A stretch of 39,450 nt of DNA, from contig CALVKN010000068.1 of assembly GCA_944332715.1 (NCBI GenBank), positions 143,755 through 183,204 of the forward strand, given 5' to 3'. The stretch is from an uncultured Bacilli bacterium. GTDB taxonomy: Bacteria > Bacillota_I > Bacilli_A > RF39 > UBA660. Shown in pieces: positions 1,844 to 35,936 of this stretch; within the stretch, counting starts at the first letter, position 1, and the number at the start of each line of letters is the position of its first letter. A model generated the notes under the pieces. The model worked only from the letters and a program-made list of their open reading frames with translations. It was not told the DNA's origin and searched no databases. The translations under genes and the position numbers were made by a program.

Positions 1844-1877
1844 ATTGTTCCGGTAAGACATAGATGTGGGGGTATCC

Positions 1878-3863
1878 ATGGCAAAGACATATACCGTATC
1901 GGATATTCAGGTGATCGAGGGGCTGGATGCGGTCCGCATGCGGCCGGGCATGTACATCGGCTCGACCGGGCAGCGCGGGCTGCACCACCTGCTCTGGGAA
2001 ATTGTAGACAATTCCATCGACGAGGCGGCCAACGGCTATGCGTCCGAGGTGAGCGTCACGCTCAACCGCGACGGGTCGGTCACCGTGGCGGACAACGGGC
2101 GCGGCATCCCGGTCGGCATCCACGAAAAGCTGGGCGTGTCGGGCGTGGAGGTCGTGTTCACGCAGCTGCACGCCGGCGGCAAGTTCGGCAACGACAGCTA
2201 CGGCTATTCGGGCGGCCTGCACGGCGTGGGCGCGTCGGTGGTCAACGCGCTGTCGGAGTGGCTGACGGTCGAGGTGTTCTATGAGAACCGCGCGTACAAG
2301 ATGGAGTTTGAGAGCGTGGACGACGGCACGGGGCACATCGTCTCCGGCAGGCCGAAATACCCGCTCACGGAGGTCGGGCGGACGCGCCGGCAGGGCACGG
2401 TGGTCACGTTCAAGCCGGACGCGCGCGTGTTTGAGACGGTGGAGATGAACTATGACGTCGTGTCGCGCCGGCTGCGGGAGCTGGCGTACCTGAACCGCGG
2501 TGTGCGCATGGTGCTGACCGACAACCGGCGGCGCAGCGCCGCCGAGGACGGCGAGGAGCGGCCGCGCACGGTGGAATACCGGTTCGACGGCGGCCTGTCG
2601 GACTTTGTCACGTTTTTGAATGCGGACAAGACGGCGCTGTACGAGCCGCCGATCCACGTGCAGGGCAGCAGCGGCGGCATCGTGGTGGAGCTGGCGCTGC
2701 AGCACAACGACGGCTATGCCGACAGCCTCTTTTCCTATGTGAATAACATCCCGACCACCGAGGGCGGCACGCACGAGACGGGGTTCAAGGCCGCCTTCAC
2801 GAAGGTAATGAACGACTACTGCCGCCGCACCGGCATTTTGAAGGAGAAGGACGCGTCGCTCGCGGGCGAGGATTTCCGCGAGGGCATCACGGCGGTGCTG
2901 AGCCTCAAGATGCGCTCCATCCAGTTTGAGGGCCAGACCAAGACGAAGCTGGGCAACACGGAGGCGCGGCCGGCCGTCGAGGCCGTGGTGGGCGAGGAGC
3001 TCACGCGGTTTCTCGAGGACCTGAAGCACGCCGCCGTGGGCAACGCCATCGCGGAAAAGGCGGTCAAATCGGCCAAGGTGCGCGAGGCGGCGCGCAAGGC
3101 CAAGGCCACCGCGCGCGAGAAGAACAAGCTGGAAAACGCGCCGCTCGTGGGCAAGCTGTCCAGCTGCACCGGCCGCAACGCGGCGGTGAACGAGCTGTTC
3201 ATCGTCGAGGGCGACTCCGCGGGCGGCAGCGCCAAGCAGGGGCGCGACCGCCGCTTCCAGGCGATTTTGCCGCTGCGGGGCAAGCCGCTCAACGTCGAAA
3301 AAAAGCGGCTCGACCAGGTGTTGCAGAACGAGGAGTTCCGCTCCATGATCACGGCCATCGGCACCGGCATCGGCGAGGATTTCGACATCCGTTCGCTCCG
3401 GTACGACAAGATCATCATCCTGGCCGACGCGGACCAGGACGGCGCGCACATCCGCTCCATCCTGCTCACGTTCTTCTACCGGTACATGAAGCCGCTCATC
3501 ACCGAGGGGCACGTGTACATCGGCCGGCCGCCGCTCTACAAGGTGCAAAAGGGCGGCAAGTCCGTCTACTGCTACGACGACGACGAGCTGCGGCAGGCCA
3601 CGCGCAGCGTGGGCCGCGGCTATACGCTCCAGCGTTACAAGGGGCTGGGCGAGATGAACCCGGAGCAGCTCTGGGAGACGACGATGAACCCGCAGAACCG
3701 GCAGCTCATCCGCGTCACGATCGAGGACGCGGCGGACGTGGAGCACCTGGTCACCGTGCTCATGGGCGACAAGGTGCAGTCCCGCAAGGAGTACATCTTC
3801 GAGTATGCGGATTTCAACCGCCGGCGCGACGACGTGTTTGAAAAGATGGCCAACCGACAGTAA
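1878..3863 (+). CDS. Type IIA DNA topoisomerase subunit B (GyrB/ParE family)
   Basis: ATPase subunit of a type II topoisomerase, which passes one DNA duplex through another. The 661-residue product has the GHKL ATPase ([11 protein letters not shown] with Glu41 and Asn45, DNGRGIPVG, and [18 protein letters not shown]), the transducer domain, and the TOPRIM domain with [15 protein letters not shown] near 443 and [10 protein letters not shown] near 516. It ends in the short C-terminal block [13 protein letters not shown]. The length is that of Gram-positive GyrB or ParE; no long proteobacterial insert is present. The ATG at 1878 has a GGGGG site 5 nt upstream; an in-frame ATG at 1866 sits before that site and is rejected. 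TOPRIM wording ([14 protein letters not shown]) is gyrase-like, but the partner lacks a GyrA box, so ParE is possible. Confidence 0.9.
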
Positions 3864-3874
3864 AGGACGACGAT

Positions 3875-6274
3875 ATGCCAAAGACGACGGAACCGATCCA
3901 GGAAAAGATCCTGCTGAGCAGCATGGACGAGGTCATGCACAACTCCATGATGCCCTATGCCGAGCACGTCATTCTGGAGCGCGCGCTGCCGCGCGTGGAG
4001 GACGGGCTCAAGCCCGTGCAGCGCCGCATCCTGTTCACGATGCTCGAGCTGGGGCTTACCCAGGACAAGCCGCACCGCAAGAGCGCGCGCATCGTGGGCG
4101 ACTGCCTGGGCAAGTACCACCCGCACGGCGACTCTTCCGTGTACGACGCCATGGTGCGCATGGCGCAGCCGTTCAACATGCGCGTGCCGCTCGTGGACGG
4201 GCACGGCAACTTCGGCTCGGTCGACGGCGACACGGCCGCCGCCATGCGCTATACCGAGGCGCGCATGACGGAGGCGGCCGCGCAGCTGCTGCGGGACATC
4301 GACCGGGACACCGTGCCGTTTGTGTTCAACTTTGACGACACGACCAAGGAGCCGGAGCTGCTGCCGGGGCGGTTTCCAAACCTGCTCATCAACGGCGCGT
4401 CCGGTATCGCGGTCGGGCTCGCGACGAACATCCCGCCGCACAACCCGGCCGAGGCGATCGACGCGGTCATCGCCACGATGGAAAACCCGCGCATCCCGCT
4501 GGACGAGCTGATGCGCATTTTGCCCGCGCCGGATTTCCCGACGGGCGGCTTCCTGCTCGCGTCGGACGAGATCCGCCGCGCGTACGAGACGGGCCGCGGC
4601 AAGCTGACCATGCGCGCGCGCACGCATTTTGAGGAGCAGAAGAACGGCAAGACGCTCATCGTCGTCACCGAGCTGCCGTATCAGGTCAACAAGGCGGCGG
4701 CGCTCGAGAAGATCCTGGCCGTCAGCCAGGAGAAGAAGACGCTGTTCCAGGGCATCGGCGACATCCGGGACGAGAGCGACCGGCAGGGCATGCGCGCCGT
4801 CATCGAGGTCAAGAAGGACGGCGACCCGGAGAAGATCCTGCAATATCTGTACAAGTATTCCGACCTGCAGTGCACGTTTGGCGTGAACATGGTCGCCATC
4901 GCGGGCGGCAAGCCGCAGCAGATGGGCCTGAAGGAGATTTTGCAGCACTACATCCGCCACCAGCGCGACGTGGTCACGCGCCGCACGAAAAACGAGCTGG
5001 AGACGGCGGAGCGGCGGGAGCACACGCTGGCCGGGCTGATGATCGCCGTGAACCACCTCGACCGCGTGATCGCGCTCATCCGCGCGTCCAAATCCCCGCG
5101 CGAGGCCAAGGAAGGGCTCATGGCGGAGTTCCGGCTCACCGAGCTGCAGGCGCAGGCGATCCTCGACCTTCGGCTGCAGCGGCTCACGAACCTGGAGCTG
5201 CGGGCCATCGAGCGCGAGTACGCGGAGGTCGTCAAGCTCATTGGCGAGCTGCGCGCCATCCTGGCGTCGGACAAAAAGCTCGTCGCGCTGATCAAAAAGG
5301 AGCTGCTGGCCATCCGCGCGCAGCTGGCCGACCCGCGCCGCACGCAGGTCATCGAGGGCGAGGCGGCCATCGCCGTGGACGCGGAGGAGCTCTCCACCGC
5401 GGAGGACGTGACGGTCGCCGTATGCGAGGGGCTCAAGGTGCGCCGCTGCCCCACGCGGCTGTTCAATTTGTCGCAGATCGCCGAGGACCGGCCGCTGTTC
5501 GTCGTGGAGACGCGCTCCGACCGGCGCATCCGCCTGTTTACCGATCAGGGCGCGGTGCTTTCGCTCACCGCGGACGAGATCCCGGAGACGCGCGCCACGG
5601 CGCGCGCGGCCAACCTCGCGTCCCTGCTGCCGTTTGAGAAGAACGAGCGCATTGTGGCCGCCTTCCCGGACGAGGAGGAGGGGGAGTACCTGTTTTATAC
5701 GCGCAGCGGCAACGTCAAGCGCACGGCCGCGGCCGAATACCGGCTGCGCGTCAAGCGCACGGCGGCCATCGCGCTCAAGGAGCGGGACGCCGTGTTTGGC
5801 GTGGAGCGCCTCACCGGCGACACGCTGCTGCTCGTCACGCGGCTGGGCATGAGCATCCGCTTTACGACCGAGTCCATCCCCGCGATGGGGCGCGTGAGCG
5901 GCGGCGTCAAGTGCATCAAGCTGGACGAGGGGGACGCGGTGTGCTTTGCCGGGCAGCTGCCGGACGAGGGCGAGCTGCTGGTCGTCACCGACCGGGGCTA
6001 TGGCAAGCGCAGCTTCCTGTTCGATTACGAGGTGCAGGGGCGCAACGGCAAGGGTGTCAAGACGTTTGACTTTAAAAAGAACGGCGCGAACGGCAACTGC
6101 ATCCAGGCAGTGTTCCACGTGTGCGAGCCGTTCCCGATCACGCTCGTGCAGCGCCACGGCGCGGAGACGACGATCTCGACCGAATCGGTGCACATCGAGC
6201 CGCGCGCGGGCCGCGGGGCGATGCTCGTGGCCGTCGTGCTCGACGACGACGTGGTCGAGGTGCGCAGGGGATAA
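3875..6274 (+). CDS. Type IIA DNA topoisomerase subunit A (topoisomerase IV-like, GyrA/ParC family)
   Basis: DNA breakage-reunion subunit. The 799-residue product has the winged-helix core with [20 protein letters not shown] near 75-94 and the catalytic tyrosine in AAAMRYTE (Tyr126). A coiled region follows, then a C-terminal beta-pinwheel (about 500-799). The quinolone-determining positions are Ser87 and Asp91, the sensitive-type residues. The GyrA box (Q-R/K-R-G-G-K/R-G), which gyrase needs to wrap DNA and introduce negative supercoils, should lie around 505-530. Instead the sequence reads [15 protein letters not shown] with no such motif. That favours a ParC-like relaxing/decatenating enzyme or a second, non-canonical gyrase paralogue. 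It starts 11 nt after subunit B with its own AAAGGA site, so the two form an operon. Confidence 0.9.
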
Positions 6275-26976: not shown

Positions 26977-27531
26977 TCAGAGCCCCAGCGCCTCGTGCAC
27001 GGCGCGCATGCCTTCGATGCTCTCGGCGATCACGTCGTCGAGCGTCATGCCGAGCATGTCGCAGCCGGAGAGGATCACGTCGCGGTTGACGCCGGCGGCG
27101 AAGTGCTTGTCCTTGAATTTCTTTTTGACGCTCTTGACCTCCATGTCCATCACGCTGCGCGATGGGCGCATGAGCGCCGCAGCCGTGATGAGCCCGGTCA
27201 GCTCGTCGATGGTATAGATGGTCTTTTCCACCGGCAGCTCCGGCTTGACGTCTGTGCAAAGGCCGTAGCCGTGCGCGCACACGGCGCGGATAAACGCCTC
27301 GTCAAATCCCGCTTCCTTTAAGATCCGGGGCGCGACCTGCAGATGTTCGTCCGGCCACTTTTCATAGTCCACGTCGTGCAGCAGGCCGACCAGGCCCCAC
27401 GCGTCCGGGTCCTCGCCAAAGCGCGCGGCAAAGCGGCGCATGACCGCCTCCACGGCATAGGCGTGCTTGAGCAGCGCGTCGCTCTCGTTGTACTGCTTGA
27501 GCAGGGATAGCGCCTCTTCGCGTGTCTTCAT
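26977..27531 (-). CDS. HD-domain hydrolase-like protein
   Basis: A 184-residue HD-superfamily protein. Metal-binding positions appear as His23 (LLKHAYAVEAV), His52-Asp53 (LLHDVDYEKWP), His63 and a later His (VCAHGYG). Similar stand-alone HD proteins are annotated as hydrolases of nucleotides or phosphate esters; the substrate is unknown. The ATG at 27531 has a GAGGG site. It is divergent from rpoB, and its promoter (27597-27569) backs onto the rpoB promoter. Confidence 0.82.
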   Translation of the reverse strand: MKTREEALSLLKQYNESDALLKHAYAVEAVMRRFAARFGEDPDAWGLVGLLHDVDYEKWPDEHLQVAPRILKEAGFDEAFIRAVCAHGYGLCTDVKPELPVEKTIYTIDELTGLITAAALMRPSRSVMDMEVKSVKKKFKDKHFAAGVNRDVILSGCDMLGMTLDDVIAESIEGMRAVHEALGL

Positions 27532-27568
27532 CGGGATCGCCCTCGCTTTCCGGTATGATAACCAAATT

Positions 27569-27597
27569 ATTGTATCGGAACGGGCAAAAAATAGCAA
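27569..27597 (-). promoter_or_regulatory. Promoter of the HD-domain gene
   Basis: Minus strand: TTGCTA (27597-27592), 17-bp spacer, TACAAT (27574-27569). Confidence 0.75.
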
Positions 27598-27616
27598 TAT
27601 ATTTCGCAAATTTCCC

Positions 27617-27645
27617 TTGACAACTTGATTTCCTGCTGATATCAT
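27617..27645 (+). promoter_or_regulatory. rpoB promoter
   Basis: Consensus TTGACA (27617-27622), 17-bp spacer, TATCAT (27640-27645). A second TTGACT at 27652-27657 with poor -10 candidates near 27675-27682 may give a weaker second promoter. The leader from the first is about 160 nt. Confidence 0.8.
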
Positions 27646-27680
27646 ACAAAATTGACTTATGATGGATATACTGTGGTAAT

Positions 27681-27811
27681 ATGCCCAAAATGGTCTTTCT
27701 CATGCGTCCCGGACGCATGGAAAAGACAGGAAATGGGCATCCTCCACGGTGGATCCTGTGGGAAAAACAGCAAATTGATGCGCTGCGACGCATCGGCAAG
27801 GGGTGAACGCG
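27681..27811 (+). promoter_or_regulatory. Structured rpoB leader RNA, candidate cis-regulatory element
   Basis: Four hairpins lie in a row. The first spans 27681-27740: ATGCCCA (27681-27687) with TGGGCAT (27734-27740), GTCTTT (27693-27698) with AAAGAC (27722-27727), and CATGCGT (27701-27707) with ACGCATG (27713-27719). Then TCCAC/GTGGA (27743-27753), CTGT/ACAG (27756-27770) and GATGCG/CGCATC (27777-27794), four bases before the AGGGGTGA ribosome site. ATGCGTC at 27702-27708 could instead pair with GACGCAT at 27787-27793, breaking the first and last hairpins. No T-run terminator is present, so control of translation is more likely than attenuation. No known leader class was recognised. Confidence 0.55.
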
Positions 27812-31561
<3,750 letters not shown>

Positions 31562-31603
31562 CACCTGCGACGGGGCAATATGCCCGAAGGGAGATAGGAT
31601 ATC

Positions 31604-35131
<3,528 letters not shown>

Positions 35132-35165
35132 GCGGCAAAACGGCCGGAAAGGGGGAGGGGCGCGC

Positions 35166-35936
35166 GTGGACAGGACGATCGATAACCGGGATTGCCCGCT
35201 GTATGGCACGCATTACTGTGAATTGCTGCATATGCGGGAGTGCGGCCAGTGCCCGCTCACCCGCCCGTCGTCGGACGTGACGCCGGAGAGCCTGCGCAGC
35301 GACCTGGACCTCTATGAGTCGCTGTTGCCGGAGGGGGGTGTGGCCCCGCTGTTTGAGGCGAAGACGTGCCGCTTCTGCCGCGACGAAGCTGCCGCGCGCA
35401 GGCGGCAGGGCTACGCCATCTTCAACATGGCGCACCCGGAGCCGAAGCGGATGCAGAACGGGCTGCTCTTTGGCAAGCGGCGCGCGGCGGTGGGCACGAT
35501 GATCCCCGTGCAGGTCGCCATCTGCCCGCACTGCCGTCGGCGGCTGCTGCTGCTCGAGTACCTGCCGGTGCTGCTGCCGCTCGTCGTGGGCGCGGCGTTC
35601 CTGCTGCTGCTCACGCTTTCCGACGTGGGCGATGCGCTCATCCGCGTGGCGCCCGTGCTGCCGTTTGTGATCTGGGTGGCGGGCATGGCACTCGCTTGGG
35701 GCGTGGCAAAGCTGCTGCGCGTCGCGCTCAAACGGCGCTTTGCGCACGACATGTACGTGGACATCCTGGAGCATCCCACGCTGCGGCGAATGCTTGAGAA
35801 GGGCTGGTTCCCGGTGCCCAACCAGGGAGGCGTGCGGCCGGTGTTCAGCAAGAGCCGCCTGCAGCGGGGGCTGGGCACGGCGCCGTCGCAGACGGCCGGG
35901 CAGCGCGCGGCGGGGACCGCGCCGGAGAATCATTGA
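35166..35936 (+). CDS. Unknown Cys-rich membrane protein in the rpoC-L7Ae gap
   Basis: A 256-residue protein I do not recognise. Eight cysteines fall in an N-terminal cytoplasmic-looking region (Cys10, 18, 26, 29, 68, 71, 120, 123), probably two zinc sites. Two membrane helices follow (about 132-150 and 161-181), then a basic tail. The GTG at 35166 has a GGGGGAGG site. It starts 34 nt after rpoC, so it is probably on the rpoBC transcript. Its stop codon is part of the -35 box of the next gene. Most Firmicutes have no gene here. Confidence 0.72.
   Translation: MDRTIDNRDCPLYGTHYCELLHMRECGQCPLTRPSSDVTPESLRSDLDLYESLLPEGGVAPLFEAKTCRFCRDEAAARRRQGYAIFNMAHPEPKRMQNGLLFGKRRAAVGTMIPVQVAICPHCRRRLLLLEYLPVLLPLVVGAAFLLLLTLSDVGDALIRVAPVLPFVIWVAGMALAWGVAKLLRVALKRRFAHDMYVDILEHPTLRRMLEKGWFPVPNQGGVRPVFSKSRLQRGLGTAPSQTAGQRAAGTAPENH

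Follow-up and report, generated by a model that had tools for sequence, protein, structure and literature searches.

The rpoB gene in the window (the whole 39,450-nucleotide stretch of DNA analyzed here) is preceded by what is very probably, judging from sequence comparisons, an rpoB-specific promoter and leader conserved in Clostridia. The best-conserved part of the leader region is a 12-nt block at the predicted start of the transcript (window 27652-27663). We propose that this rpoB-specific initial transcribed sequence, which lies at a fixed distance after the promoter, may act on promoter escape or pausing, and we give the explanation as a whole (conserved promoter and leader, together with an escape or pause mechanism) a probability of about 0.5.

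The rpoBC Unit and Its Relatives

The coding part of the locus comprises the following features.

27798-27803, plus strand: ribosome binding site AAGGGG, identified from the sequence and kept in relatives
27812-31561, plus strand: rpoB coding sequence, with Pfam Rpb2 domains and a start kept in relatives
31604-35131, plus strand: rpoC, the second gene of the rpoBC unit, with Pfam Rpb1 domains

Conservation of the start in relatives favors ATG 27812 over GTG 27803 as the rpoB start codon. In many bacteria, rplJL lies 5' of rpoBC. The earlier note on this DNA reported that rplJ and rplL are absent 5' of rpoB here, and this is correct; in relatives, the L10 leader is found on a contig other than that of rpoB, and it adjoins rplA where that was read. 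The best reading is that rpoBC is an independent transcription unit with its own promoter and 5' leader. On the minus strand, an open frame of 2427 aa (27926-35209) lies antisense to rpoBC; it most likely arises as a side effect of the high G+C content of the coding sequence. Elsewhere in the window, gyrB and gyrA lie side by side (1866-6274, assigned by Pfam).

The genome bin that holds the window's contig (C68) comprises 1.52 Mb and contains a second rpoBC on contig C10. The G+C content of the window (1-39450, G000:C68) is 64.7%, versus 30% at the C10 rpoB locus, and the second rpoBC is AT-rich and resembles the rpoB of the bin's genus. Because the G+C content differs and the bin holds a second, genus-type rpoBC, C68 has most likely entered its bin as a contaminant. 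We considered the genus relatives of the window's own assembly as a comparison set and dropped them, as their rpoB genes, in the searched genomes where one was found, are just 57-59% identical to that of the window. The relatives used for comparison were instead the family of G030 (uncultured Clostridiales RUG14713 and others), within which the closest relative, G033, shows 98% identity over the first 200 RpoB residues.

A Conserved Block at the Predicted Start of the rpoB Transcript

Three elements make up the promoter and the predicted start of the transcript.

27617-27645, plus strand: rpoB promoter, with -35 element TTGACA (27617-27622), 17-nt spacer, TG (27637-27638), and -10 element TATCAT (27640-27645); 11 of 12 consensus positions match
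27646-27651, plus strand: constant 6-nt gap ending at the predicted start, the purine A27651; gap length fixed across Clostridia
27652-27665, plus strand: initial transcribed block TTGACTTATGATGG, class consensus YTGCATYAnnAT(G), conserved across Clostridia

The promoter is kept in nearly all of the Clostridia rpoB upstream regions examined. When 80 such regions, from rpoB genes found via the protein alone, were aligned, they shared the promoter, the constant 6-nt gap, and then the block YTGCATYAnnAT(G). Across 137 promoters, 60 of which were found with the model described below, the information was concentrated at +2 to +12. The sixth base of the gap, which is the predicted start, was a purine in 91% of these promoters and the next base was a pyrimidine in 82%; transcription in the window is predicted to start at A27651. 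The window's own block, TTGACTTATGATGG, keeps the TG and the TATGAT end, and its middle departs from the class consensus (GACT for GCAT).

As a control for bias, we picked promoters by their match to the -35 and -10 elements only (n = 77) and counted a match to TGYATYA when at least 6 of 7 positions agreed. The motif was present at exactly the same offset in 45 of the 77 promoters, against a background of 1.6% per offset (about 1 expected by chance), and it lay one nucleotide nearer (offset -1) in 6 more.

We then built a sequence-only model of the promoter plus block from 47 sequences. At E values up to 0.01, the model matched in 217 of 245 whole Clostridia genomes. Among the best 30 of these matches, 29 were upstream of rpoB, and all 20 of the lower-ranked matches that were fetched lay 62-305 bp before the rpoB coding match. 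The model's E values are rough, and the resulting total of 49 out of 50 matches just upstream of rpoB covers the best 30 and these 20 lower-ranked matches. In a phylum-wide sample searched at a stricter threshold (E up to 1e-4), 15 of 159 genomes passed, with 13 of those matches at rpoB. Fourteen genomes were searched closely: each had one strong match, and in all 14 the best match was at rpoB, with second matches in six of them scoring 16-19 bits versus 21-36 bits for the first. Of 12 family genomes searched for a longer pattern, 10 have it once and the other two, from a divergent clade, lack it. The sole non-rpoB match among the best 30 (L239, 1501-1556) is a close match, ATGTATTGTAATGG, that precedes an apparent rpsT (ribosomal protein S20, judged by its N-terminus); it is either a chance occurrence or a second user of the element. 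A literature search, made with limited access to subscription journals, found no description of the Clostridia block, although one may exist.

Two simple accounts of the block were rejected. An anti-start role (UGCAUUAU to AUGAUGCA) suits some clades but, judged by eye, neither the window's clade nor Lachnospiraceae. A second promoter beginning at the block would rely on the family's next hexamer, TAATAT at a 19-nt spacing, and this hexamer is lost in clade D. The window also carries a series of -10-like hexamers between 27640 and 27682 (TATCAT at 27640, TATGAT at 27658, TATACT at 27667, and TAATAT at 27677; spacings of 18, 9, and 10), which may represent tandem starts or sigma-dependent pause sites.

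No intrinsic terminator was found on the plus strand of 27400-28000, and the lack of a terminator-like site on that strand makes transcription attenuation at the window's rpoB leader unlikely. In Geosporobacter ferrireducens (L018, just upstream of 3001), a terminator-like hairpin followed by a T run (AAGTCTTCC...GGAAGACTTTTTT-like) ends the rpoB leader just before the ribosome site, and attenuation may operate in that lineage. Limiplasma-like genomes (L007, L008, L013, and L019) have an rpoB leader of their own, in which the block runs on into GTATC; this has a complement, GATAC, close to the ribosome site in at least three of the four, and a conserved TGCGAGAACA then precedes AAGGGG.

The Leader Contains a Long Hairpin and a Covarying Hairpin, P4

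The leader lies where the earlier note placed it, between the promoter and the rpoB ATG at 27812. The predicted fold of 27646-27811 has an energy of -60.3 kcal/mol, versus -44.1 (sd 4.1) for shuffled sequences (z = -3.98; 0 of 200 shuffles folded as well). Its elements are as follows.

27664-27756, plus strand: long irregular hairpin, from the fold; partner arms co-vary in several clades
27664-27667/27753-27756, plus strand: helix P0, from the fold
27669-27676/27744-27751, plus strand: helix P1, from the fold
27681-27687/27734-27740, plus strand: helix P1b, from the fold
27693-27698/27722-27727, plus strand: outer part of helix P2, from the fold
27700-27708/27712-27720, plus strand: inner part of helix P2, from the fold
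27680-27690, plus strand: strip UAUGCCCAAAA in the 5' strand of the long hairpin, conserved in most family leaders, clades A to E
27756-27770, plus strand: P3, a weak small hairpin (CTGT..ACAG), assigned by eye; the region differs in other clades
27777-27794, plus strand: P4 (GATGCG/CGCATC), directly before the ribosome site; 13 distinct arm pairs

The hairpins are at the places previously described, but what had been taken for a 60-nt hairpin forms the interior of a 93-nt irregular one. Helices P0, P1, P1b, and P2 have predicted probabilities of 0.78 to 1.0.

We compared over 50 family leaders, both by eye and in MAFFT alignments. The 5' strand of the long hairpin is nearly constant (CUGU, UAUGCCC), and its partner arms change along with it in several clades, both at P0 (GGAU/AUCC, CCU/AGG, GCU/GGC) and at P1 (CUGUG/CACAG, CUGUC/GACGG, CUGUA/UACAG). 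In duplex tests against shuffled or foreign partners, the long hairpin was strongly supported in the window, L111, L127, L128, and L110. The result was mixed overall: by duplex energies with own versus foreign partners, support for P0-P1 was absent from the 94% clade and from much of the 87% clade. Conservation of P0-P1 by pairing is thus moderately supported and limited to some clades; the hairpin as a whole is kept as a shape whose sequence drifts freely, in P2 above all.

P4 is present in most clades, with arms such as GATGC/GCATC, GATGT/ACATC, GATGA/TCATC, GATGG/CCGTC, GATAC/GTATC, GGCGC/GCGCC, GGTAC/GTGCC, GGCAC/GTGTC, and GCCGC/GCGGT. MAFFT misplaced the 5' arm, and the arms were therefore aligned by hand. 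All 65 cells of the 13 distinct arm pairs were canonical, compared with 51.5 in shuffles, a figure that is inflated because the arms were chosen by eye; two to four pair types per position still remain. That the pairing of P4 has been kept by compensatory changes is well supported by these alignments. The earlier note had proposed testing aligned upstream regions of relatives for such changes, and they were indeed seen in the hairpins, chiefly in P4. Its suggested comparison with Rfam gave no match for the leader at gathering or permissive thresholds.

Comparison with Known Regulatory Systems

The Lacto-rpoB motif (RF01709) is a candidate structured RNA, likely to be cis-regulatory, from Lactobacillales (PMC2864571). 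It shares with the leader described here a position directly before rpoB. It had no match in the window at the gathering score, none in the loci of eight relatives at E values up to 5, and none in the 159 genomes of the phylum sample at E values up to 0.001, whereas the control, Lactococcus lactis, does match. On this evidence, we do not regard the window's leader as a member of Lacto-rpoB. The L10 leader (RF00557) is likewise a control leader associated with this group of genes. It was matched in seven of eight family genomes at E values up to 0.001, two of them above the cut-off, but these matches were at other loci on other contigs, and neither the window's rpoB leader nor those of its relatives matched it.

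In E. coli, rpoBC is reported to be under autogenous control that is separate from L10 (PMC10931766). There, rpoBC follows rplJL in one operon, whereas here it has its own promoter; the likeness lies in the genes and in control apart from L10. Also in E. coli, promoter-proximal pauses are associated with a canonical -10 element, a 6-7 nt spacer, a YRY start, the motif G-10Y-1G+1, and -10-like sequences (PMC7876045). The Clostridia rpoB promoters resemble these pause promoters in having a -10 box, a 6-nt spacer, a predicted purine start followed by a pyrimidine, and a downstream -10-like sequence. They differ in that a pyrimidine before the start is not typical, in that the -10-like hexamer lies further downstream, and in that a complete block has been kept at a single gene throughout a class. 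Within the 137 promoters, the triple G3/Y12/G13 occurred in 28-35%, compared with a background of 3%, but not above the product of the single columns; A2 and T6 of a -10-like hexamer at +7 were found in 54%, compared with 11% expected. Pause-type features are partly enriched at rpoB promoters, a pattern that is suggestive of a pause but no proof of one.

Possible Modes of Action

The fixed spacing of the block from the -10 box suggests that it would act during initiation or early elongation. The step affected would be either promoter escape or a pause close to the promoter, near nucleotide 13, and the block would in this way tune how often the polymerase makes its own large subunits. The remainder of the approximately 160-nt leader, with its long hairpin and P4, would be a stable, non-switching structure that sets ribosome access and mRNA stability. 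We advance the escape or pause mechanism itself as a tentative proposal, one that could well be wrong even if the element has been correctly identified.

The main rival is autoregulation at the level of RNA, in which polymerase or a subunit assembly would bind the leader RNA (the 5' end and the long hairpin) and repress translation of rpoB; it has this standing because E. coli rpoBC is reported to be autogenously controlled, independently of L10 (PMC10931766). The leader is structured and P4 abuts the ribosome site, as this model would have it. However, the best-conserved block keeps a fixed distance to the -10 box and lacks a consistent pairing partner in the leaders compared, and the structure of the leader varies between families while the block persists. 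We consider RNA-level autoregulation unlikely. A similarly low probability attaches to the idea that the hairpins serve mainly as an RNase III site or a 5' mRNA stabilizer, with no regulation. Such a role would suit a long hairpin that keeps its shape and is free to change in sequence, but it leaves the 5' block unexplained, and the hairpin was not observed in all clades.

It is more doubtful still that the block is the DNA site of a dedicated transcription factor overlapping the rpoB start site. A short, almost gapless motif at a fixed distance from the promoter and nearly exclusive to rpoB could be such a site, but the block contains no consistent palindrome, no candidate regulator gene is linked to it, and it would be unusual for a regulator to have essentially one site per genome in hundreds of genomes.

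The 3' arm of P4 (CGCATC) can also pair with the start codons, AUGAUGC, and when the coding sequence was included, the probability of P4 in the window was 0.37. Translation could then be regulated by a choice of CGCAUC between its own 5' arm (start open) and AUGAUGC (start closed), and several leaders from clades B to E are predicted to pair with the start codon. The predicted probability of this pairing is only about 0.03 in G033 and 0.01-0.03 in the 94% clade (seven of its eight members), in which both arms of P4 have changed away from complementarity. Because the pairing is nearly absent from G033 and most of the 94% clade, we do not take it for the ancestral switch or function, and we regard regulation of this kind as improbable.

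The model of the earlier note, in which 27702-27708 and 27787-27793 pair to form one of two mutually exclusive folds that toggle the ribosome site, is highly improbable: the segments ATGCGTC and GACGCAT exist and are complementary, but the pairing is neither energetically competitive (its probability is about 1e-14, and the forced fold, which breaks two strong stems, is 20.1 kcal/mol worse) nor conserved in the nearest relatives. It cannot form in G033, where the first hairpin is CCATGCAAGGAAATGTATGG and P4 is nearly identical to that of the window, or in the 94% clade, where P4 reads differently (GGCGCG/CGCGCC, for example) and the sequence of the first hairpin is unrelated; relatives keep both hairpins as hairpins and not the pairing between them. 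The accompanying suggestion that the leader is a separate control element for RNA polymerase synthesis survives the loss of the switch. The leader does look like such an element, since rpoB is served by a near-consensus promoter of its own, since this promoter and the transcript start are rpoB-specific and conserved across Clostridia, and since P4 covaries.

Implications

To our knowledge, how the amount of RNA polymerase is set in bacteria outside the enterics is poorly understood. The present result corrects the proposed two-way RNA switch, and the class-wide initial transcribed element was unexpected and had been missed by the earlier note. A short element at a fixed position before one gene throughout a class lends itself readily to mutation and in vitro transcription, and the promoter-plus-block model finds rpoB promoters in raw genomes. 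More speculatively, and at odds that we would put below even those of the escape or pause mechanism at the block, polymerase across Clostridia may read the first dozen or so bases of this transcript as a pause or escape signal that controls its own synthesis, so that rpoBC output would report the state of the enzyme. If this is true, control of polymerase synthesis would be linked to the polymerase's own initiation step.
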